Shown: in pieces, positions 50,716 to 61,694 of the stretch
How positions within the stretch are numbered: the stretch's first letter is position 1
How the letters are laid out: each line of letters begins with the position of its first letter
The notes under the pieces: model-generated
The model's database searches: none
What the model saw: the letters and a program-made list of their open reading frames with translations, nothing else
Told to the model about the DNA's origin: nothing
Made by a program: the position numbers and the translations under genes
Origin: Niabella agricola
Lineage (GTDB): Bacteria; Bacteroidota; Bacteroidia; Chitinophagales; Chitinophagaceae
Assembly (NCBI RefSeq): GCF_021538615.1
Contig: NZ_JAJHIZ010000003.1
Location: 868,001-932,000, forward strand
Length of the DNA: 64,000 nt
Direction of reading: 5' to 3'

Positions 50716-51120
50716 TTACAACAAACAAAATGCGCTGCCGCGATAAGGACAGCCAATAGCCGCCATTCTGTTTCCATTACGCCCTCCTTCATATAATATA
50801 CAACACCCACCCGGCTTTCCCGGTTCCTGCAGACGCGCTTAAGTACGAATTTCTTTAAACAAGCAGCACTGGCAAACACTGGCGCAAAGTAAATTTAAAA
50901 TATTGAGAGTATTGAAGACTGTACGAAAAAATCAGCACCGGTGTGCATTCGTTTGCACAAACAACACCAACAGCCATGCGGCTTTTTACAAATACATTAC
51001 CTTCGTGCCTGCTCGTTCCATTTTGTAACCCGCTGATCTCCGCCGGCCGGTCTCAGGAGCATGATCTCAAAATACAATTACAAAACCATACTGGCTCCTG
51101 CCAGTAAAATACAGATCATT
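50716..51120. other. intergenic region between sigma factor and second sulfatase
   Basis: About 400 bp with no supported gene. Contains GTTTGCACAAAC (50951-50962), a dyad with CA centre that could bind a regulator, and TACCTTCG (50998-51005; one mismatch to TAnnTTTG) before the sulfatase. Confidence 0.35.
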
Positions 51121-52617
51121 GTGAAAAAAATACTGCTCATTATGACCGGGCTGTTTGTATATGTTACTACCATCACTGCCCAACAAAAACCCAATGTCAT
51201 TTACATTTATGCCGATGATATGGGCTACGGGGAATTGGGTTGCTACGGTCAACAAAAAATCAAAACGCCACACCTGGATCAGATGGCCGCCGAGGGCATG
51301 CGGTTTATCCAACACTACTCCGGCACACCGGTATGCGCACCGGCACGTTGTATGCTGCTGACCGGAAAAAATGGGGGACATTCCTACATAAGAGGCAACT
51401 ATGAACTGGGAGGCTTCCCGGACAGTTTGGAAGGCGGCCAGATGCCGCTGCCCGAAGGCAGTTTCACCCTGGGACATCTTTTTAAGAATGCGGGGTATGC
51501 AACAGCAGCCATCGGAAAATGGGGCTTGGGATCTGTACATACCACGGGGCACCCATTATTGCAGGGCTTCGATTATTTTTATGGATACCTCGATCAGAAA
51601 CAGGCGCACAATTACTATCCCACACATCTTTGGGAAAACCATACATGGGACACGCTGAACAACCCCAACATCTGGGTACACCGGCAGCTCAACCCGCAAA
51701 CCGCCACCGATAGCGACTTTGATTATTTCAAAGGCAATGTGTATTCCATTGATAAGATGACGGAGAAAGCACTGGGGTTTATCCGTACACACCGGCAACA
51801 ACCTTTCTTTCTTTACCTGCCCTACACCATTCCGCATGTCTCACTGCAGGTACCGGAAAAATACATCAATATGTACAAGGGACAGTTTGATGAAAAGCCC
51901 TACTATGGGCAAAATGGCTATGCAGCATCTAAATACCCGCTATCCACCTATGCCGGCATGATTACCTGTCTCGACGACCAGGTAGGCCTCATTATGAATG
52001 AGATCAAAAAGCTGGGACTGGATCAAAATACCCTGATCCTGTTCTCCAGCGATAACGGAGCTACTTTTAACGGCGGGGTTGACGCCGCTTTTTTTAACAG
52101 CGTACAGGGACTACGCGGTTTGAAAATGGATGTTTATGAAGGCGGCTTCAGGGAGCCCTTTATCGCCCGCTGGCCGGGCAAGATTCCTGCGGGCAAAACC
52201 AGTGCCCTGCTTTCCGTGCAATATGATATGATGCCCACATTTGCCGAGCTTATCCGGCAACGGTTGCCCTATGCCGTTAACGGCCTTTCGCTGCTACCGG
52301 AGCTATTGGGCAAAGGAACCCAGCAACAACACCCCTATCTTTATTTTGAATATCCTGAAAAGGGAGGTCAGGTGGCAATCCGGATTGGAAAATGGAAAGG
52401 CATACGTACCGGTGTACAGAAAGACAAAGGGGCATCCTGGCAGCTTTACAACCTGGAAACAGATTTGCGTGAAACAGATGATATTGCCACTCGGCACCCC
52501 GGCATTATCCAACAGATGCAGGCCATTGCAACAAAAGAGCATCAGCATCCGCATATAAAAGAATGGGAATTTATAGACCCGAAATTTGAGAAGGCCGCAG
52601 AGGCGCAGAAACGCTGA
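51121..52617 (+). CDS. formylglycine-dependent arylsulfatase (exported)
   Basis: 498 residues from GTG at 51121, which gives the compact signal peptide VKKILLIMTGLFVYVTTITA; an ATG at 51061 in frame would add a 20-residue polar extension. Metal Asp pair in YIYADDMGYGELG (D32, D33), maturation motif VCAPARCMLLTG with Cys72 converted to formylglycine, AAIGKWGLG and SSDNGATF active-site motifs. Distinct in sequence from the sulfatase at 42577, suggesting a different sulfate position or sugar. Transcribed divergently from the sigma factor. Confidence 0.92.
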   Translation: MKKILLIMTGLFVYVTTITAQQKPNVIYIYADDMGYGELGCYGQQKIKTPHLDQMAAEGMRFIQHYSGTPVCAPARCMLLTGKNGGHSYIRGNYELGGFPDSLEGGQMPLPEGSFTLGHLFKNAGYATAAIGKWGLGSVHTTGHPLLQGFDYFYGYLDQKQAHNYYPTHLWENHTWDTLNNPNIWVHRQLNPQTATDSDFDYFKGNVYSIDKMTEKALGFIRTHRQQPFFLYLPYTIPHVSLQVPEKYINMYKGQFDEKPYYGQNGYAASKYPLSTYAGMITCLDDQVGLIMNEIKKLGLDQNTLILFSSDNGATFNGGVDAAFFNSVQGLRGLKMDVYEGGFREPFIARWPGKIPAGKTSALLSVQYDMMPTFAELIRQRLPYAVNGLSLLPELLGKGTQQQHPYLYFEYPEKGGQVAIRIGKWKGIRTGVQKDKGASWQLYNLETDLRETDDIATRHPGIIQQMQAIATKEHQHPHIKEWEFIDPKFEKAAEAQKR

Positions 52618-52619
52618 AG

Positions 52620-52930
52620 TTTTTTTGTATTTCTTGTGGTTTGTTCTTTACCGCAACGGTTGCAAAGCATCCGCAAAGAACGCAATGAGAACCGGAGCGA
52701 GCATCGTTACAACCTCCTTCGCTACTTTGCGAAAATCCTCGCGTATTTTCGTGGTTTGTTTTTTACAGCAACGATCGCAAAGAAAGCCGGATTAATCATC
52801 GCTCAAAAACACATAGCACACTTCGCGAACATCCTTGCGATCTTTGCGGTTCGTTTTTACCAACAAGCACCGCAACGATCCCAATGAAAACCGGTGGCAG
52901 CATCGTTATCGCGCTGCGTTGGTTGCGGTT
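52620..52930. repeat. three tandem degenerate units (GTGGTTTG...GCAACG..GCAAAG)
   Basis: Units begin near 52636, 52751 and 52846. The first two share GTGGTTTGTT and CAGCAACGATCGCAAAG-like words, and the third reads GCGGTTCGTTTTTACC then CCGCAACGATCCCAATG. No coding function is apparent in this gap between convergent genes. Confidence 0.55.
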
Positions 52931-52983
52931 AGCTATCGCTAAGAAAGCGCCGAACAATTATATGCCTGTAAAAACGGTGCCAT

Positions 52984-53009
52984 AAAAAAAGCCACTGTTA
53001 CCAGTGGCT
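52984..53009 (-). terminator. intrinsic terminator of pckA
   Basis: AGCCACTG/CAGTGGCT stem with a 4-nt loop, then U7 on the minus strand, about 30 bp after the pckA stop. Confidence 0.85.
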
Positions 53010-53037
53010 CCTTCATAAAACAAACACTAGCTTTCTA

Positions 53038-54642
53038 TCAACGTTTCGGTCCGGCCGCCGTTACTGCTGCTGCAACTATAGTTTCGTAGCTTTCAAAGTT
53101 CTTTATAAACTGTGCTGCCAGGTTCTGCGCCTGGGCATCATAGGCCTCCGGGTGCTGCCACGTCTGGCTCGGGTTTAATACGTTCGGATCCACACCGGGG
53201 CAGGTACCCGGTATCATCAGGCCGAAAACAGGATCTTTGTGATAAATGACATTATCCAGGCTTCCGTTCAGCGCAGCCCGGATCATTGCCCGGGAGTCTG
53301 CAAGTTTCATCCGGCTTCCGGTGCCATAAGCGCCACCCGTCCAGCCGGTATTCACCATCCATACTTTTACACCGTGCTGGGCAATGCGGTCGCCCAGCAT
53401 CGTTGCATAACGCGCAGGATGCAGCGGCAGAAAGGGGGCACCGAAGCAGGCACTGAAAGTAGCTTTGGGTTCCGTAACCCCGGTTTCAGTGCCCGCTACT
53501 TTTGCAGTGTAGCCGCTGATAAAATAATACAGCGCCTGCTCGCGCGAGAGCCGGGCAATGGGCGGCAGCACTCCATAAGCATCACAGGTTAAAAAGAATA
53601 GATTCCTGGGAATGCCACCGGTTCCTTCCGGAACACTGTTCTCCACAAAATCGATGGGATAGGCTACCCTTGTATTTTCAGTAACCGAAGCATCATCAAA
53701 ATTGATCCGGTTGGTACCCGGGAAAAAGCTAACATTTTCAACAAGCGCCCCTTTTCTTACTGCACGATAGATTTCCGGCTCCTTTTCCGCAGAAAGTCCG
53801 ATACACTTTGCATAGCAGCCTCCTTCAAAGTTAAACACACCGTTATCATCCCAGCCATGCTCATCATCGCCGATCAGTTTCCGGTCCGGGTCCGTACTCA
53901 GGGTTGTTTTTCCCGTACCGCTCAATCCGAAGAACAGGGCTGTATCACCCTTCTTTCCCTTGTTGGCGGCACAATGCATACTAAGCACGCCGCGGGTTTG
54001 CGGCAGCAGGTAATTCAATATTGAAAAAACCCCTTTTTTGATTTCGCCAGTATAGGCACTGCCGGCAATCAGGATCATTTTATGTTTAAAGCTTACAACA
54101 GTAGTGTTGCCCTGCCGGGTGCCGCAACGTACCGGATCCAGCTCCAGGGAAGGCGCGGACAGAATATGCCAGTCCGGCTCAAAATGCTCCAGCTCCTCTT
54201 CAGAAGGTCGTAAAAAAAGATGGTGCGCGAACAGGTTCATCCAGGGCAGCTCGTTTACGACCCGGATATTCAGCCGGTATTCCGGTGCGGCACAGGCATA
54301 GGCATCTCTTACCCACAACTCTTTGCGGCTGTTTAAATAATTGCGCACGTCTTCCAGGATCCGGTCGAAATAGAATTCCTCGATCGGGTTATTAAAATTT
54401 CCCCAATCGATGGTTGCTGCTGTTACAGCATCTTTCACAACAAATTTGTCGCGGGGCGAACGTCCGGTGAACCTGCCGGTAGAAATAACCAGGGCCCCGG
54501 TATCATTCAGCCTCCCCTGGTGATTCATAAGCGCATCATCTACCAGCTCATCAGGGGACAACTGGTAATGGATCTGGTTGTTTAGGTTTAACCCCGCTGC
54601 CTTGAGCTGTTTTCCGGGGATTTCGAATGGCTTTGTAAGCAT
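53038..54642 (-). CDS. pckA: phosphoenolpyruvate carboxykinase (ATP)
   Basis: 534 residues, the normal length. Interconverts oxaloacetate and PEP in gluconeogenesis. The P-loop FFGLSGTGKTTLS and the following IGDDEHGWDD, the substrate/metal region with FVVKD...RSPRDKFV, and LFLTCDAYGVLPPIARLS are conserved. Start ATG at 54640-54642. A minus-strand TATTTTTG box lies 27 nt upstream, in an AT-rich leader. Confidence 0.96.
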   Translation of the reverse strand: MLTKPFEIPGKQLKAAGLNLNNQIHYQLSPDELVDDALMNHQGRLNDTGALVISTGRFTGRSPRDKFVVKDAVTAATIDWGNFNNPIEEFYFDRILEDVRNYLNSRKELWVRDAYACAAPEYRLNIRVVNELPWMNLFAHHLFLRPSEEELEHFEPDWHILSAPSLELDPVRCGTRQGNTTVVSFKHKMILIAGSAYTGEIKKGVFSILNYLLPQTRGVLSMHCAANKGKKGDTALFFGLSGTGKTTLSTDPDRKLIGDDEHGWDDNGVFNFEGGCYAKCIGLSAEKEPEIYRAVRKGALVENVSFFPGTNRINFDDASVTENTRVAYPIDFVENSVPEGTGGIPRNLFFLTCDAYGVLPPIARLSREQALYYFISGYTAKVAGTETGVTEPKATFSACFGAPFLPLHPARYATMLGDRIAQHGVKVWMVNTGWTGGAYGTGSRMKLADSRAMIRAALNGSLDNVIYHKDPVFGLMIPGTCPGVDPNVLNPSQTWQHPEAYDAQAQNLAAQFIKNFESYETIVAAAVTAAGPKR

Positions 54643-54668
54643 ATTGCGTTGAAACTTTGTTGAAACAG

Positions 54669-54676
54669 CAAAAATA
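54669..54676 (-). promoter_or_regulatory. -7 box (TATTTTTG) of pckA
   Basis: Perfect TAnnTTTG on the minus strand, 27 nt before the pckA start; no -33 TTG at standard spacing. Confidence 0.45.
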
Positions 54677-54822
54677 TAATTTGAAAAAATCTAAAAAAAA
54701 TATATTTTAAAGATCAACAATTAGATATTTTAAAACAAACAACGAATAAATAAAGAATAATTTTCAACATTTAATTATTAAGCTAACAATTGTTTGCATT
54801 TCTGTCTGAAATACAATTTCTT

Positions 54823-54849
54823 AGCCCGGGATTGATCCTGGGCTTTTTT
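54823..54849 (+). terminator. terminator-like hairpin upstream of the methionine operon promoter
   Basis: AGCCCGGGAT/ATCCTGGGCT with a 2-nt loop and T6 on the plus strand. No plus-strand gene precedes it, so it may insulate the riboswitch transcript or end a short unknown transcript. Confidence 0.55.
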
Positions 54850-54866
54850 CTTTCCTTTTTGTTTCC

Positions 54867-54874
54867 TACCTTTG
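54867..54874 (+). promoter_or_regulatory. -7 box (TACCTTTG) of the methionine operon
   Basis: Perfect TAnnTTTG, about 58 bp before the SAM aptamer. A TTTG at 54858 is too close to be the -33 element. Confidence 0.5.
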
Positions 54875-54911
54875 CGCCGGCCTGGTAAAGGTTATTTATA
54901 GTTCTTTTTAT

Positions 54912-54931
54912 TTTCCCGCCCCGGCGGGAAA
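54912..54931 (+). promoter_or_regulatory. 9-bp hairpin directly 5' of the SAM aptamer
   Basis: TTTCCCGCC, a CC loop, then GGCGGGAAA, ending 1 nt before the aptamer P1 stem. Possibly a 5' stabilising hairpin or part of the leader fold. Confidence 0.45.
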
Positions 54932-54932
54932 C

Positions 54933-55036
54933 CTTATCAAGAAAGGCAGAGGGTTTGGCCCTGTGAAGCCTTGGCAACCTGTTATGAGGATAACAAGGTG
55001 CCAATTCCAGCTCCCGCAAAACGGGAGGAAGATAAG
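54933..55036 (+). ncRNA. SAM-I (S-box) riboswitch aptamer
   Basis: P1 CTTATC/GATAAG closes a four-way junction. The conserved core reads CAAGAAAGGCAGAGGG, then GGCCCTGTGAAGCC, TTGGCAACC and AGGTGCCAATTCC; P3 is CCTGTTAT/ATAACAAGG and P4 CTCCCG/CGGGAG. This is the S-box consensus, which binds S-adenosylmethionine. Its position before metY-metX-hom fits methionine feedback. Confidence 0.95.
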
Positions 55037-55070
55037 TCGGATCGTAGCATATTAAAAAACTTAATAGAAC

Positions 55071-55103
55071 AGCTCATCTGGTTTATCCGGGTGGGCTTTT
55101 TTT
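55071..55103 (+). terminator. riboswitch-controlled transcription terminator
   Basis: AGCTCATCTGG pairs with CCGGGTGGGCT (11 bp with G-U pairs) and is followed by T7. Located 34 nt after the aptamer, as expected for the off-state terminator when SAM is bound. Confidence 0.85.
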
Positions 55104-55140
55104 ATGCAACGGCGAACTGCTGCCTGTAATTTTTTTGAAT

Positions 55141-55248
55141 ATGAAACAAAACTCTACTAAATTCGTAGTCTGCATGAAACAAAACGCAACATATCCTATT
55201 TTGTACATTACGCCCGTAATGTGTTGCTGCATCTGCTGTATGCCCTAG
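55141..55248 (+). CDS. short Cys/Met-rich upstream ORF, candidate leader peptide
   Basis: 35 codons, ATG to TAG, between the riboswitch terminator and metY. The peptide starts MKQNSTKFVVCMKQNAT, with an MKQN word repeated after 11 residues, and ends in VMCCCICCMP. Six Cys and four Met in 35 residues is far above normal for a bacterium. No signal peptide or family recognised. Placed in the leader of a Met/Cys biosynthetic operon, it resembles amino-acid-sensing leader peptides (inference). Hairpins flank the Cys codons. It could still be chance. Confidence 0.45.
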   Translation: MKQNSTKFVVCMKQNATYPILYITPVMCCCICCMP

Positions 55249-55257
55249 CCGGCATAC
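55205..55257 (+). promoter_or_regulatory. two hairpins flanking the Cys codons of the leader ORF
   Basis: ACATTAC-GCCC-GTAATGT (55205-55222), whose 3' arm reaches into the first TGT codon, and GTATGCC-CTAGCC-GGCATAC (55238-55257), whose loop holds the TAG stop. The Cys codons TGT TGC TGC ATC TGC TGT start inside the first arm and end inside the second. Confidence 0.4.
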
Positions 55258-55290
55258 CTTCTACCTTATACCCCAACAGGTGTTCTTTAA

Positions 55291-56658
<1,368 letters not shown>

Positions 56659-56663
56659 AAAAC

Positions 56664-56715
56664 AAGACCTGCAAGATTTCCCCTTATTCAGATCGGTGAA
56701 CATCTTGCAGGTCTT
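56664..56715 (+). promoter_or_regulatory. 14-bp stem-loop between metY and metX
   Basis: AAGACCTGCAAGAT (56664-56677) and ATCTTGCAGGTCTT (56702-56715) pair perfectly with a 24-nt loop, filling the 66-bp gap. It may attenuate or process the mRNA between the two genes. Confidence 0.6.
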
Positions 56716-56724
56716 TCAAAAAGA

Positions 56725-57765
56725 ATGCAACAACACGTATTTACATATTCAGCTCCCTTTGTATTGGAAAGCGGTGTCCGCTTTCAGAACCTGCGGCTGG
56801 CGTATACAACCTATGGCAGCATCAATGAAGAACAATCCAATATTGTATGGATTTTTCATGCGCTGACGGCCAACAGCAACCCGCATGAATGGTGGCCCGA
56901 AATGATTGGTGCAGGAAGGGCTTTTGATCCCGCAAAGGATTTTATTATTTGCGTAAATATGCCGGGCAGCTGTTACGGAAGCAGCAGTCCGCTGGATCTG
57001 AACCCGGCAACCGGAGAGCCGTACTATCATGACTTTCCGTTCTTCACGATCCGCGACATGGCACGCGCCTACCAGCTGTTACAAAAAGAGCTGGGCATTC
57101 AAAAAATCAAGATCGGTATTGGCGGCAGCACCGGTGGTCAACAACTCCTGGAATGGGCGGTACTGGACCCTGAGCTCTTTGAATACATCGTTCCGCTGGC
57201 CACCAACGCGGTACATTCGCCCTGGGGGAAAGCCTTTAACGCTTCCCAGCGGTTTGCCATTGAAGCCGATCAAACCTGGCAAACGAAAAATCCGGAAGCA
57301 GGATTGAAAGGCATGGAAGTAGCACGGGGTATTGCCCTGCTTTCCTATCGTAATGCTACGGCCTATAATAAAACGCAATCCGAACATTCTGATGAACAAC
57401 TGGAAGCTTTCCGGAGTGAAAGTTACCAGCGCTACCAGGGCACCAAGCTAGCAGCACGGTTCAATGCGTTCAGCTATTATGCCCTTAGTAAAAGTATGGA
57501 CAGCCATAACCTGGGCCGCGGCCGTGGCGGCGTGATTAAGGCACTGGAAACCATTAAGGCAAAAACCCTGGCGCTGGCCCTGGAAGGCGATCTGTTATTT
57601 CCCCCGGAAGAACAGGAATTTTTAGCCGAACATATTCCCGGAGCGATTGAGAAACTGATCCGCTCCGACTACGGGCACGACGGATTCCTGCTGGAATTTG
57701 ACCAGATATCAGAGGCAATAAAAAAATTCACAACCCGTCATGCCAAGAGCGTGGCGATAAAATAA
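56725..57765 (+). CDS. metX: homoserine O-acetyltransferase
   Basis: 346 residues. Alpha/beta-hydrolase enzyme that acetylates homoserine from acetyl-CoA, providing the MetY substrate. Nucleophile Ser135 in IGIGGSTGGQQLLEW, oxyanion and CoA region HALTANSNPHEWW with PGSCYGSSSP, Asp in LEGDLLFPP and His in SDYGHDGFLLE. Ends 5 bp before hom. Confidence 0.95.
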   Translation: MQQHVFTYSAPFVLESGVRFQNLRLAYTTYGSINEEQSNIVWIFHALTANSNPHEWWPEMIGAGRAFDPAKDFIICVNMPGSCYGSSSPLDLNPATGEPYYHDFPFFTIRDMARAYQLLQKELGIQKIKIGIGGSTGGQQLLEWAVLDPELFEYIVPLATNAVHSPWGKAFNASQRFAIEADQTWQTKNPEAGLKGMEVARGIALLSYRNATAYNKTQSEHSDEQLEAFRSESYQRYQGTKLAARFNAFSYYALSKSMDSHNLGRGRGGVIKALETIKAKTLALALEGDLLFPPEEQEFLAEHIPGAIEKLIRSDYGHDGFLLEFDQISEAIKKFTTRHAKSVAIK

Positions 57766-57770
57766 AAATA

Positions 57771-59027
57771 ATGGGCGAACATAGAGAATTAGTGATCGGG
57801 CTATTTGGCTTTGGTGTTGTAGGAGAAGGATTGTATAAGGTATTGCAGCAAACGCCTTCTTTGAAAGCCTCGATCAAAAAAGTCTGCATCAAGCATCCCG
57901 GAAAAAAAAGAAATGCTCCGGAAGACCTGTTTACAACCGACCGCAATGAGCTGTTAAACGACACCTCCATCAACCTGATCGTAGAGGTGATCGACGACGC
58001 TGTTGCCGGCTTTGAAATTGTAAGCACTGCATTAAAAAATGGAAAGGACGTAGTTAGCTCTTCCAAAAAAATGATCGCGGAAAACCTGCCGGCGTTGCTG
58101 CAGCTGCAACAAAAAACCGGGAGGTCCCTGTTGTACGAATCCTCTGCCTGCGCCTCCATACCCGTTATCCGGAACCTGGAGGAATATTACGACAATGATC
58201 TTTTACACAGTATCCGTGCCATCGTAAACGGAAGCACCAACTTTATACTTACCAAGATCTTTGAAGAGAACCTGGCGTTTAAAGACGCGTTGCTCCTGGC
58301 GCAACAGCTGGGCTTTGCAGAAAGCGATCCCACCCTGGATGTAGAAGGATACGATGCCCTCAATAAATGGACCATCCTGCTGCTTCATGCCTATGGAATT
58401 GTGGCGCACCCGGATCATATCCTGTTTAACGGCATTCAGAATATTGCCAAAACCGACGCAGCGGTAGCCAAGGCACGCGGACAGCAGATCAAGCTGGTAG
58501 CACAAGCTAAAAAACTGATCAACGGCGGCGTGGGCGCTTATGTACTGCCCCAGTTTGTAAATACCGACAGTCCGCTGTCCTTTGTAAAAAATGAGTACAA
58601 CGGTGTGGTCATCGAAAGCGGGTTTGCAGATCAGCAGTTCTTTTATGGTAAAGGTGCAGGCAGCTTTCCTACCGCTTCTGCAGTACTCAGCGATATCTCT
58701 GCCCTGCGTTATGAATACCGCTACGAGTATAAAAAACTCTACCATCACAAGCCGCATCAACTCAACGATGCCATTTACCTCAAAGTATTTGTAAGCTTCA
58801 CCGACCTGGCGAATATTCCCAAAGAAGACTTCGAATGGATCGAGGAATGGCATGCCCAGGAGAGCCGCAAATATTTATCCGGCGTAATTGCATTACAGAA
58901 ATTAAAACAAAATTCCTGGTGGAAAGAGAACAGCACTTCCTTAATTGTGGAAGCCGATGGCATTATTGAAGATATCGAGGAACGGAAGTTAAAGAAGAAA
59001 AGCCTGGAGCTGGCAGGGCTGCTATAA
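57771..59027 (+). CDS. hom: homoserine dehydrogenase
   Basis: 418 residues. NAD(P)-dependent reduction of aspartate semialdehyde to homoserine. NAD-binding GLFGFGVVGEGLYKVL, the catalytic domain with SSACASIPVIRNLEEYY, IVNGSTNFILTKIFE and AESDPTLDVEGYDALNKW. The N-terminal aspartokinase is absent and the C-terminal tail does not look like a typical ACT domain. Completes a homoserine-to-homocysteine operon (hom, metX, metY) under SAM control. Confidence 0.93.
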   Translation: MGEHRELVIGLFGFGVVGEGLYKVLQQTPSLKASIKKVCIKHPGKKRNAPEDLFTTDRNELLNDTSINLIVEVIDDAVAGFEIVSTALKNGKDVVSSSKKMIAENLPALLQLQQKTGRSLLYESSACASIPVIRNLEEYYDNDLLHSIRAIVNGSTNFILTKIFEENLAFKDALLLAQQLGFAESDPTLDVEGYDALNKWTILLLHAYGIVAHPDHILFNGIQNIAKTDAAVAKARGQQIKLVAQAKKLINGGVGAYVLPQFVNTDSPLSFVKNEYNGVVIESGFADQQFFYGKGAGSFPTASAVLSDISALRYEYRYEYKKLYHHKPHQLNDAIYLKVFVSFTDLANIPKEDFEWIEEWHAQESRKYLSGVIALQKLKQNSWWKENSTSLIVEADGIIEDIEERKLKKKSLELAGLL

Positions 59028-59101
59028 GTTCCAGGTTCCTGGTTTCAAGTTCCTGGTTCAAAGTTCAGGTTTGGTCTAAACATTGAACCAGGAACGCTGA
59101 A
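59028..59101. repeat. inverted and tandem word repeat between hom and tsaD
   Basis: TTCCAGGTTCCTGGTTTC and AAGTTCCTGGTTCAAAG are followed by TTGAACCAGGAAC. GTTCCTGGTTCAA (59049-59061) pairs perfectly with TTGAACCAGGAAC (59083-59095), giving a 13-bp stem between convergent genes. Confidence 0.55.
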
Positions 59102-60145
59102 CTAAAATCCCCGCGCCATAGAGGGCACCGACAGATCTGCAAAATCATGCACCAGGTATTTATAGTACCCGGTGATGGCGATCATACCGGCATTGTCGGT
59201 GCAATACTGAAAATCGGGAATAAAGGTATTCCAGCCTTTCTGTTCGCCCATTTCCTTGAAAGCCTTGCGCAGCCCGCTATTGGCAGATACGCCGCCAGCG
59301 ATACAAAGATCTTTTATCCCCAGGTCTTTTGCAGCCTTGCTCAATTTGTTCAACAAGATTGAGATGATCCGGTTCTGAATGGAAGCACAGATATCCCGCA
59401 GGTTTTCATCTATAAAACGTTGGCGTTCCTCCGTGGTGGCAGCAAACGCTTCTTTATACACCTGGGCAGTACCTGCGTTTCTCAGGAAATAAAGAATAGC
59501 GGTCTTCAGTCCGCTGAAGCTGAAATTGTACCCCGGTATTTTTGGCTCGGGAAACTGAAAGCGCTCCGGGTTACCCTCTTTTGCATATTTATCTACCAGG
59601 GGTCCGCCCGGGTAAGGCAGCCCCAGCATTTTTGCAGCCTTATCGAAAGCCTCACCTGCTGCGTCATCAATGGTTTCTCCGATAATTTCCAGTTGAGTCG
59701 GTGAAACACATTTTACGATTTGTGTATGGCCGCCGCTTACCGTTAAGCAAAGAAAAGGGAACGATGGTTTATCGTCAGGAATCAGGTTTGCCAGTACATG
59801 CGCCTGCATATGGTTTACCGCAATCAATGGTTTATTTAATGCCAGCGACAGCGATTTGGCAAACTGCCCGCCCACCAGCAAACTCCCGATCAGCCCCGGG
59901 GCCTGGGTAAAGGCGATCGCGTTCATCTCCTCCAGCTGCAAACCGCTTTGCTTTAAGGCTACATCCACCACCGGTACGATGTGTTGCATATGTGCCCGCG
60001 ATGCCAGCTCCGGAACGACGCCCCCATGCTCGGCATGTACCGCCTGTGTGGCGATCCGGTTGGATAATATTTTTCCATCGCTGCAAACTGCAGCAGAAGT
60101 TTCGTCACAACTCGATTCAATTGCCAGTATATTGATCTTGCTCAT
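59102..60145 (-). CDS. tsaD: tRNA N6-adenosine threonylcarbamoyltransferase
   Basis: 347 residues. Transfers the threonylcarbamoyl group to A37 of ANN-decoding tRNAs (t6A). ASKHA fold: LAIESSCDETSAAV, ALNKPLIAVNHMQAHVLA with the two metal-binding His residues, LTVSGGHTQIV, PGGPLVDKYAKEG and CIAGGVSANSGLR. Start ATG at 60143-60145. Convergent with the methionine operon. Confidence 0.96.
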   Translation of the reverse strand: MSKINILAIESSCDETSAAVCSDGKILSNRIATQAVHAEHGGVVPELASRAHMQHIVPVVDVALKQSGLQLEEMNAIAFTQAPGLIGSLLVGGQFAKSLSLALNKPLIAVNHMQAHVLANLIPDDKPSFPFLCLTVSGGHTQIVKCVSPTQLEIIGETIDDAAGEAFDKAAKMLGLPYPGGPLVDKYAKEGNPERFQFPEPKIPGYNFSFSGLKTAILYFLRNAGTAQVYKEAFAATTEERQRFIDENLRDICASIQNRIISILLNKLSKAAKDLGIKDLCIAGGVSANSGLRKAFKEMGEQKGWNTFIPDFQYCTDNAGMIAITGYYKYLVHDFADLSVPSMARGF

Positions 60146-60446
60146 TGTTTTATTTTATTCGATATCTATTCACATTCAATGCCGGTTTCTTTACCGTTTT
60201 TTATAGCTGCTGCAGATCACCTCCGGGCGCGACAAGTTGCGCTGATTGCGTCTACAGTGCCGTATAATATATTGTTGAATACGACCAAAGCTGCTGCCAA
60301 ATCTGAAGTTCAGATTTAACGCGATGGACGCAAAGTTTCTACAACGGCCGCAATGGGAGCCTGGATGTTAAAAATCCCCTTCGTGTTCCTTGGAAACGAC
60401 ATTGATTCACCATTAACTATTAACCATTGACTATTGCCTGCTACCC
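60146..60446. other. gene-free region between tsaD and the ABC permease
   Basis: 300 bp without a gene. Contains AACGCGATGGACGCAAAG (related to the GCAACG/GCAAAG tract family) and the word tract CACCATTAACTATTAACCAT at about 60410-60437. Confidence 0.4.
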
Positions 60447-61694
60447 TCAACTCCGGATCGCCACCACCGGGTTCATTTTTGCCGCCTGCACCGCCGGAAC
60501 AATGCCCGCAACCACGCCCACGATTACGCAGATCAGAAAGGTCCAGATCATATTTCCAATGGATATAAATACCGGGAAATCGAGCGCCCTGCTCAGGATC
60601 TGTGCCAGCAGGTATACCAGGAACAAACCGATCAACCCGCCCAGCATACAGAGAAAGGCCGATTCCAGCAAAAACTCTGTGAGGATGATCTGACGCTTGG
60701 CCCCGAGGGCTTTTTTTAAACCGATCTGCGAAGTTCGTTCTTTTACGGTAACAAACATGATATTGGCCACGCCAAACAACCCAACGATCAAACTGATTCC
60801 TCCGATCACGGCCCCTCCGATATTCAATCCCGCAAATGCCTCTTCCACCTGGTCGCCGATATCATTGATATCATTCAACGCAAAATTATCCTCCTGCTTC
60901 GGGCTAAGTTTATGAAGGCTTCGCATGGTTACCATCAGCTCATCCTTCAACCCCTTACTGGTGATCTGCTCCCGGCCCTGCACCATAATCACCGGGTCCG
61001 TCTTTTCTTCATTGTAGATGGTACGCCCAAACAGAAAAGGCAGGATCACGCTTTGATCAAATCCCCAGCCACCGATCATCTGCTTCCCCTGTTTCTCGAT
61101 CACCCCGGCCACCATGATCTTTTTTCCGGCAATGGTGATGATTTTATTAACCGCCAGTTCCGGTTCATTAAACAACTTTTCAGCGATCTCGTAGCCGATC
61201 ACAGCCACATTGGTACCATAGTTAAACTCAGCATCAGAAATAAATCGACCAAATCCCATGGTCAGCGGCTGGATCTTGATGTATTCTTCGCTCACACTAT
61301 ACACGTTCACTCCGTTTAACAGGTACCCCGAAAACTCCACGTTACCCTTCCCCTGCAGGGTAAAAGCCACATACCGGGCATTAGGCGTCCGCTCTTTAAT
61401 CGGCTTTACTTCATCGTAACGGGGAACCGGCCGGTTCACATATTTCCACCAGGGATAGTCCGGTCCGCCCCCATAATCCCATTTATCCACATAGATCGTA
61501 TTGGATCCCAGAGTCTTTATTTCATTCTGTATGTTTTGTTGCAGGCTGTTTACTGTAGCCAGAACCCCGATGATGCAAAAGATACCAATGGTGATACCGA
61601 AAAGCGACAGGAAGGTACGCAGCTTGTTTTTCCATAACTCCTGCATGGCCATACGAAAACTACTGCTTATGATTTCCAGTGGGCGCCTTAACAT
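60447..61694 (-). CDS. MacB-like ABC transporter permease
   Basis: 415 residues. First membrane helix (FLSLFGITIGIFCIIGVLA), a MacB-type periplasmic core (about 45-280; GSNTIYVDKWDYGGG...), then three helices of the FtsX domain (IGGAVIGGISLIVGLFGVANIMFV, FLLESAFLCMLGGLIGLFLVYLLA, IWTFLICVIVGVVAGIVPAVQAA) with the coupling motif ERTSQIGLKKALGAKRQII. Mechanotransmission exporter permease; no ATPase is next to it within the window. Start ATG at 61692-61694. Confidence 0.9.
   Translation of the reverse strand: MLRRPLEIISSSFRMAMQELWKNKLRTFLSLFGITIGIFCIIGVLATVNSLQQNIQNEIKTLGSNTIYVDKWDYGGGPDYPWWKYVNRPVPRYDEVKPIKERTPNARYVAFTLQGKGNVEFSGYLLNGVNVYSVSEEYIKIQPLTMGFGRFISDAEFNYGTNVAVIGYEIAEKLFNEPELAVNKIITIAGKKIMVAGVIEKQGKQMIGGWGFDQSVILPFLFGRTIYNEEKTDPVIMVQGREQITSKGLKDELMVTMRSLHKLSPKQEDNFALNDINDIGDQVEEAFAGLNIGGAVIGGISLIVGLFGVANIMFVTVKERTSQIGLKKALGAKRQIILTEFLLESAFLCMLGGLIGLFLVYLLAQILSRALDFPVFISIGNMIWTFLICVIVGVVAGIVPAVQAAKMNPVVAIRS

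Follow-up and report, generated by a model that had tools for sequence, protein, structure and literature searches.

The metY gene of Niabella agricola is preceded by a short ORF that encodes a run of Cys residues and that lies downstream of a SAM-I riboswitch. Comparative analysis revealed this Cys leader to be real, conserved and coding, and not the product of chance. On the strength of sequence comparisons, the ORF is proposed to act, quite probably, as a ribosome-stalling attenuator that would sense cysteine-tRNA downstream of, and in series with, the SAM switch. The window referred to here is the whole stretch of N. agricola DNA that was analyzed, 64,000 nucleotides in length, with positions being counted from its first letter.

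Results

Organization of the metY locus

Examination of the plus strand of the window revealed a SAM-I aptamer, a terminator, a short ORF, metY, a metX-like gene and a homoserine dehydrogenase gene, in that order (Table 1). An expression platform, comprising a stem and a T run, is present 3' of the RF00162 aptamer, and a response to SAM is predicted from the sequence. The gap of some 240 nt that had been described between the riboswitch terminator and metY was borne out by the coordinates of the two features. Upstream, the divergent gene at 53038-54642 on the minus strand encodes what we take, from its sequence, to be an ATP-dependent phosphoenolpyruvate carboxykinase-like protein, and a terminator-like stem (54823-54844) lies between this gene and the SAM aptamer.

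Table 1. Features of the metY leader and of the downstream genes in the window.
Feature	Positions	Strand	Basis
SAM-I (S-box) riboswitch aptamer	54931..55038	+	RF00162, 94.1 bits (cut-off 44.4)
Intrinsic terminator of the SAM riboswitch	55071..55103	+	11-bp stem 55071-55097, then T run
N-terminal extension of the reported frame	55141..55173	+	Open frame beginning with ATGAAACAAAAC; codons 1-11 without coding constraint
Leader ORF proper, MKQNATYPILYITPVMCCCICCMP and stop, 24 codons	55174..55248	+	Coding bias; similar start spacing in 28/44 loci
Predicted pairing of GCAAC (55186-55190) with GTTGC (55223-55227, start of the Cys run), enclosing P1	55186..55227	+	Single-sequence fold
Hairpin P1 (ACATTAC-gccc-GTAATGT), just 5' of the Cys run	55205..55222	+	Two-sided changes at 2/7 pairs, 16 genus sequences
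Cys codon run C-C-C-I-C-C (TGT TGC TGC ATC TGC TGT), putative stall site	55222..55239	+	Four or more Cys within 8 residues in 15/17 genus leaders; synonymous variation
Hairpin P2 (GTATGCC-[stop codon in loop]-GGCATAC), starting inside the last Cys codon	55238..55257	+	5/6 tested pairs invariant, 16 genus sequences
Spacer rich in C (28%) and poor in G (7%), possibly a loading region for Rho	55249..55344	+	Composition; position-matched comparison
metY, O-acetylhomoserine/O-acetylserine sulfhydrylase	55345..56658	+	TIGR01326, 672.8 bits (cut-off 495.1)
metX-like homoserine acyltransferase	56725..57765	+	TIGR01392, 329.2 bits (below cut-off 500); top match in its list
Homoserine dehydrogenase (hom)	57771..59027	+	NF004976, 292.5 bits (cut-off 205)

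The reading of the leader as a cysteine T-box was considered and rejected, as the Rfam matches up to E 10 in 54900-55400 included no T-box. When the leader was searched against Rfam at a permissive E-value, RF00162 alone scored above its cut-off, with the other matches being weak and below theirs.

The leader ORF is coding from codon 12

The initial annotation had described a 35-codon frame at 55141-55248 that ends in VMCCCICCMP and contains six Cys and four Met residues. This frame is present in both the sequence and the ORF list, and its translation reads MKQNSTKFVVCMKQNATYPILYITPVMCCCICCMP. The coding nature of the frame held up, while its proposed start did not, with the conserved leader probably beginning at 55174. 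In a gapless alignment of eight genus sequences (eight of nine rows, L047 having been left out as misaligned), pN/pS for codons 12-35 was 0.30 in frame, the shifted frames giving 0.93 and 0.86, and for codons 27-35 (MCCCICCMP) was 0.06 in frame, as compared to 0.93 and 0.32. Codons 1-11 gave 1.42 in frame, with 0.32 and 0.91 for the shifted frames, and these 11 N-terminal codons were rejected as part of the leader given the value of 1.42. Because codons 1-11 are unconstrained while codons 12-35 are constrained, and because in 28 of 44 loci with a Cys run (see below) the first in-frame ATG encountered on going upstream, from a minimum of 10 codons, is 15-20 codons away from the run, the internal ATG at 55174 is the probable start. 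The frame is thus real from codon 12 and not from codon 1. Both the frame and the Cys codons were conserved among the relatives aligned, and substitutions in the Cys tract were nearly all synonymous, as the initial annotation had anticipated of a true leader. It was also observed that ATGAAACAAAAC appears twice in the frame, at 55141 and at 55174, 33 bases apart, and that both ATG codons are retained in all eight aligned close relatives, despite the lack of constraint on codons 1-11.

In all, 70 metY regions were pooled (17 from the genus, 26 from the family and 27 from the class), with the duplicates L001, L006 and L024 (of L033, L046 and L043, respectively) being dropped; a Cys run was present in 44. 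In these 44 loci, TGN codons inside the runs comprised 151 TGT, 79 TGC and 2 TGG, the last Cys lay 0-3 residues from the leader stop in 37 instances, and the distance from the leader stop to metY had a median of 98.5 nt (range 76-557). The frame remained open over 15 or more codons 5' of the run in 43 of 44 loci, as compared to 17 and 29 for the other frames, although this is a weak test because the manner in which ORFs were picked favors frame 0. Residues outside the Cys run varied widely among distant loci, and the peptide of the window itself matched no Pfam or NCBIfam family.

Cys leader ORFs recur upstream of metY

The distribution of such leaders was considered using a single criterion, namely, a short ORF with at least four Cys in any eight residues within the metY upstream region of up to 480 nt (hereafter, Cys ORF). 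In the genus, a Cys ORF precedes metY in 15 of 17 genomes, the exceptions being L041, which contains a SAM aptamer and no such ORF, and L048, in which the sequence MCYCMRCMP provides three Cys in a window. At the family level, SAM-I aptamers were detected in 118 of 147 genomes, and 132 of the 139 places listed were used. Sorted by downstream gene, these comprised metY (29), metB-like genes (68), hom (15), metX (6), SusC-type genes (3) and untyped genes (11). Cys ORFs were found in 15/29 metY leaders and 1/6 metX leaders and in none of the 68 metB-like or 15 hom leaders; by eye, they were also seen in 2/3 SusC-type and 3/11 untyped leaders. Seven of the 14 family metY leaders without a Cys ORF offer only 143-218 nt after the aptamer. 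At the class level, MetY was detected at E < 1e-150 in 29 of 198 genomes, a number reduced to 27 upon removal of the window's own genome and of L324, a stretch starting close to the end of a contig, for which the fixed start position was unsuited. A Cys ORF was found within 480 nt of metY in 15 of these 27 loci, with L304 and L309 having one further upstream. Some of the leaders that fell below the threshold (14/29 in the family, 12/27 in the class) hold shorter or more upstream Cys runs. Four metY leaders were also read directly at class SAM loci, revealing a Cys ORF in L269 and L293 and none in L279 and L285; three of these four genomes are also part of the MetY-based class survey.

Such recurrence greatly exceeds that expected by chance. 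Dinucleotide-keeping shuffles yielded a mean of 0.05, 0.15 and 0.15 Cys ORFs per set for the genus, family and class, respectively, with a maximum of one, as compared to the 15 observed in each; the genus and family sets have three genomes in common and are not independent. On the reverse strand, 0, 2 and 0 such ORFs were found. Because metB-like leaders are shorter (mean 195 nt versus 362 nt), length-keeping shuffles represent the better control. Of all amino acids, Cys showed by far the largest excess of enriched windows (15 versus 0.17 in the class and 15 versus 0.10 in the family). Val windows numbered four in each set, versus 0.47 (class) and 0.33 (family) in shuffles, which we infer to reflect shifted reading of TGTTGT, and smaller excesses were seen for Ala and Phe in the class set and for Thr in the family set. 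Of the two residues put forward in the initial annotation as the signal, Cys is thus strongly enriched, whereas Met is weaker, with Met-rich windows being in excess in the class (6/27 versus 0.03 in shuffles) and absent from the family set (0/29); on these counts, Met was rejected as the main signal. In L300, L301 and L128, Met and Cys runs occur mixed (e.g., MHRMHHCMCMCCMCM of L301), a hint that these leaders may sense both sulphur amino acids.

A pattern combining the Cys codons with hairpin P2 was used to scan the genome_contigs collection (described as holding 84,980 species), yielding 25 loci, of which 21 are from Bacteroidota and four from other phyla. All 21 Bacteroidota loci contain the ORF and a metY start 100-186 nt downstream, with MetY identities of 78-97%, while the four loci from other phyla contain neither. 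Genomes encoding a MetY that is 96-97% identical are labelled Niabella. The pattern ATGCC-N-GGCATRCARCA was found in 39 of 395 phylum genomes, with the reversed control appearing in 10 among the matches listed; its context was read within the genus only, and these numbers therefore carry no information on how widely the hairpin is spread. A search of the window's own genome for four consecutive TGY codons gave 133 matches, versus 10 for the control; 30 loci were opened, giving nine ORFs, and the four contexts inspected lay within or over larger ORFs of other kinds.

The SAM-I riboswitch usually precedes the Cys ORF

A SAM-I aptamer was present in 16 of the 17 genus metY stretches, with the remaining one, L044, having only 285 nt upstream, and in 19 of 28 class metY stretches (16/20 and 3/8). 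As the aptamer was found in 10 of the 15 class loci with a Cys ORF, the serial arrangement is usual but not universal. Among the Bacteroidota loci identified in the pattern scan, an aptamer was detected in 14 of the 18 scanned (of 21). Of those lacking one, L195, L200 and L215 have the pattern no more than some 400 bases from where the stretch ends, while L198 showed no aptamer in 2.7 kb.

Hairpins flanking the Cys run

In the genus, the Cys run sits between hairpins P1 and P2. Folding of 55177-55344 gave a value of -25.9 kcal/mol (z -2.41), with 3 of 200 shuffles being as low, and the predicted pairing of leader codons with Cys codons appeared similar, by eye, in the folds of several relatives. 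For P1, the percentage paired, the cells with two-sided changes and the covariation score exceeded those of all 500 shuffles, while the number of two-sided pairs was reached by 231 and that of further pair types by 483 of the 500; covariation thus provides moderate evidence for P1. L041, having no leader, was left out of the hairpin alignment. As P2 is almost invariant, its pairing is neither supported nor refuted by these sequences. The near invariance of TATGCC-stop-GGCATA was observed even though the partners could covary, and L148 retains P2 without a Cys run. In the family, L116 contains GTATGT-agtaa-ACATAC at the position of P2, a paired replacement.

Across 27 family loci, stem scores were 5.94 for P1 and 8.39 for P2, with shuffles giving 3.65 and 5.33, respectively. 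The scores of the 15 class loci were not above those of shuffles (4.30 versus 4.39 for P1 and 4.97 versus 5.05 for P2). L318 and L323 were left out of the class structure and composition tests given their unreliable ORF choice, and were kept in the counts of 44 and of 15/27. Since the stems exceed shuffles in the family and not in the class, the hairpins correspond to a family-level trait, whereas the Cys ORF is found class-wide.

The spacer and the mode of control

A hairpin with a T-rich tail follows the ORF in 7/27 family leaders (2.0 in shuffles) and 7/15 class leaders (3.05 in shuffles), and the best post-ORF stem of the window itself is weak (-3.0 kcal/mol). As only 7 of 27 family leaders contain such a hairpin, and as no common antiterminator was seen in the folds of the leaders, a classical attenuator does not appear to be the general mode. 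At the same time, the spacer is biased in composition. In the family, the median C/G ratio was 2.34 in the 27 loci with a leader, 1.18 in 67 metB-like loci, 0.89 in 15 hom loci and 1.20 in nine metY loci without a leader. Comparison of position-matched windows gave p values of about 2e-8 for the windows closest to the gene and 0.004 for the most distant ones, values that are optimistic given that the loci are related. In class spacers, the bias is weak (1.57), with a C/G ratio of at least 2 in 1/15 loci. In view of the C-rich spacer and the few terminators, Rho-dependent or translational control is favored, although not proven, over a terminator switch. For this window, we estimate Rho-type termination to be a tentative first choice and translational control a possible second, with an intrinsic terminator being unlikely.

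Cys leaders upstream of other genes

Genes encoding the PF01507 (cysH-type) domain were sought in 60 family genomes, and 300 nt upstream were read at 30 loci, counted from the domain match in L334 and L351, in which no start codon was found. Cys ORFs were present in 6/30 loci (L337, L338, L342, L350, L353 and L354), as compared to 0.075 in shuffles and none on the reverse strand, and the leaders of L348 and L349 end in CCC, below the threshold. The six genes correspond to frames of cysH length (240-260 aa). An Rfam scan of all 30 loci revealed a SAM-I aptamer in L338 alone among these six. In L134, a SAM-I riboswitch and a Cys ORF precede a gene encoding, presumably, a PAPS reductase-like protein, recognized by eye. 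In L353, L342 and L348, the leader ends 42-51 nt before the cysH-type gene (a stretch that is U/A-rich in L353), leaving little room for either mode of control at some of these genes. The cysH locus of the window's own genome contains no Cys run.

That genome does contain a second SAM-I riboswitch, at C3:2733310 on the minus strand (loci L002/L325), which is followed by a Cys ORF ending in KMACCCCRS and then by genes that we take to encode a SusC/RagA-type receptor of 1057 aa, a SusD-like protein and a TlpA-like protein. This is possibly an uptake locus controlled by both SAM and cysteine. In L080 and L088 (at about 240-350 of the oriented stretch), a SAM-I riboswitch, a leader ORF ending in CPCLCCPHACCCCN (or PQACCCCN) and a porin-like gene were recognized by eye. 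metY, cysH and uptake genes draw on a common sulphur supply, and the type of leader that they share carries Cys codons to be read. The Cys ORF recurs across the class and also upstream of cysH-type genes, where a SAM switch is mostly absent, and this fits cysteine sensing better than a response to SAM only.

Discussion

SAM-I riboswitches terminate transcription when SAM is plentiful. The proposal of two sensors in series, i.e., SAM and then charged tRNA-Cys, advanced in the initial annotation, gains support from the conservation, coding bias and metY association of the leader. In the mechanism envisaged, the riboswitch would end transcription when SAM is plentiful, such that the 24-codon leader ORF would be present only in transcripts that extend past the SAM switch. 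Ribosomes translating the leader would slow at the Cys codons were charged tRNA-Cys in short supply, and a ribosome so stalled would be positioned beside the hairpin containing the stop codon, adjacent to the C-rich spacer that precedes metY. The stall could keep RNA polymerase going, with a Rho site or terminator being masked, or else open metY for translation; by our estimate, it would probably turn metY on. Full expression of metY-metX-hom would thus require both low SAM and a shortage of cysteine.

Leaders of this kind are already known; their occurrence in Bacteroidota and their position behind a SAM-I riboswitch are without a report that we found. None of the literature matches listed describes a Cys leader ORF in Bacteroidota or behind a SAM riboswitch, although supplements may list one. 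For Flavobacterium psychrophilum, strong clues were described that amino-acid operons are preceded by leader-peptide attenuators, with the details, which may already include a cysteine case, being given in the supplement (PMC9723704). Leader-peptide candidates are also mentioned in general terms in PMC7366714.

In Actinobacteria, including mycobacteria, polycysteine leader ORFs precede cys operons and, in Bifidobacterium, cbs (PMC1262725), and the mycobacterial leaders are reported to be cysteine-responsive attenuators (Canestrari 2020, as cited in PMC9094748 and PMC13236596). The leaders considered here are similar in that the Cys run lies near the stop codon (0-3 residues after the last Cys in 37/44 loci), ahead of sulphur genes and without conserved terminator hairpins, with possible Rho sites having been raised for the actinobacterial leaders as a weak prediction (PMC1262725). 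They differ in phylum and target genes, and no SAM riboswitch is mentioned ahead of the actinobacterial leaders in the passages considered. Moreover, while the mycobacterial ORFs are leaderless, going by the title of Canestrari 2020, the ORF considered here begins 243 nt 3' of the aptamer's first base and so is not leaderless on the SAM transcript. A second parallel is offered by uORFC-8-2 ahead of cysS in the alphaproteobacterial Rhodobacterales, where tandem Cys codons and stems led to a proposal of ribosome-mediated attenuation; uORFC-8-2 differs in that two Cys codons usually occupy positions 14-15, in a terminal U run fitting an intrinsic terminator and in its cysS target (PMC8632094). 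Finally, SAM-I/T-box(Met) tandems before metX and metY, where a SAM-I OFF switch is followed by an ON switch responding to uncharged tRNA, are reported to obey NOT A AND B logic, with two examples being given (PMC9481103). There, the second sensor is a T-box that binds tRNA-Met, whereas here it is a Cys-codon leader ORF that is putatively translated.

As in amino-acid leader-peptide attenuators, the leader described here offers a short ORF rich in regulating codons, given its Cys run, coding bias and open frame, and serves a target in the same amino-acid metabolism, namely, metY and, elsewhere, cysH-type PF01507 genes. In the mgtA and mgtC leaders of Salmonella, short ORFs that are translated likewise occur together with RNA structure within a single long 5' leader, although these respond to Mg2+ and other signals, not through Cys codons, and do not lie behind a SAM-I riboswitch. 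By analogy of mechanism, the present leader would most likely work like the actinobacterial polycysteine leaders and uORFC-8-2.

The sign of the response has to be weighed with care. MetY competes for sulphide, as established enzymology has it, and a stalled ribosome could instead lower metY expression, through uncoupling or Rho access, so that scarce sulphide would go to cysteine and not to homocysteine. Sequence alone does not reveal the sign, and only 7/27 family leaders showed a terminator. Nonetheless, the same type of leader appears before cysH-type genes, which are expected to be induced and not shut off when cysteine is short, and the cysS analogue was proposed to induce upon starvation (PMC8632094), rendering this opposite sign rather improbable. 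It is also conceivable that what is conserved is a structured RNA element comprising P1 and P2, perhaps binding a protein or ligand, with the Cys frame being a by-product of UGY-rich RNA. Consistent with this are the near invariance of P2 in the genus, the stem scores of P1 and P2 in the family, the predicted pairing of N-terminal codons with Cys codons and the presence of P2 in L148 without the Cys run. Yet Cys ORFs persist in the 15 class loci in which the stems score at shuffle level, the runs contain 230 TGY and 2 TGG codons, and synonymous bias is restricted to the coding frame. On these three grounds, a pure RNA element was rejected, and we consider it highly unlikely.

The conserved Cys cluster, set among otherwise freely varying residues, could also be taken to suggest that the peptide acts in trans, for instance as a small thiol- or metal-binding peptide. 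However, the sequence outside the run differs widely between loci, the ORFs examined lie in leaders of sulphur or uptake genes and the peptide of the window matches no Pfam or NCBIfam family, making a trans-acting peptide even less plausible than an RNA element. As for a chance open frame, short frames are common, with 136 ORFs of at least 25 aa overlapping 51000-61000; still, the shuffle controls and the association with metY at 21/21 Bacteroidota pattern loci already refute this explanation, the probability of which is negligible. A cysteine-responsive attenuator behind the SAM switch thus stands as the preferred reading.

Because they are short, and as the peptide of the window matches no Pfam or NCBIfam model, Cys leaders are easily missed, while runs of Cys codons reveal them readily. 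It is conceivable, although somewhat short of an even call, that in much of Bacteroidia sulphur assimilation is subject to a cysteine (and partly methionine) leader-peptide regulon, often behind SAM-I riboswitches and largely without intrinsic terminators. If the proposed mechanism is true, a single transcript would carry a two-input gate that opens when SAM is low and the cell is starved for cysteine, and Bacteroidota, for which the searches found no described cysteine leader, would possess a simple cysteine sensor. Operation largely without an intrinsic terminator would further imply that in Bacteroidota a ribosome is able to control RNA polymerase or Rho close behind it. The finding bears on whether the coupling of transcription and translation in this phylum is tight enough for leader-peptide attenuation, and on how these bacteria split sulphide between cysteine and methionine.
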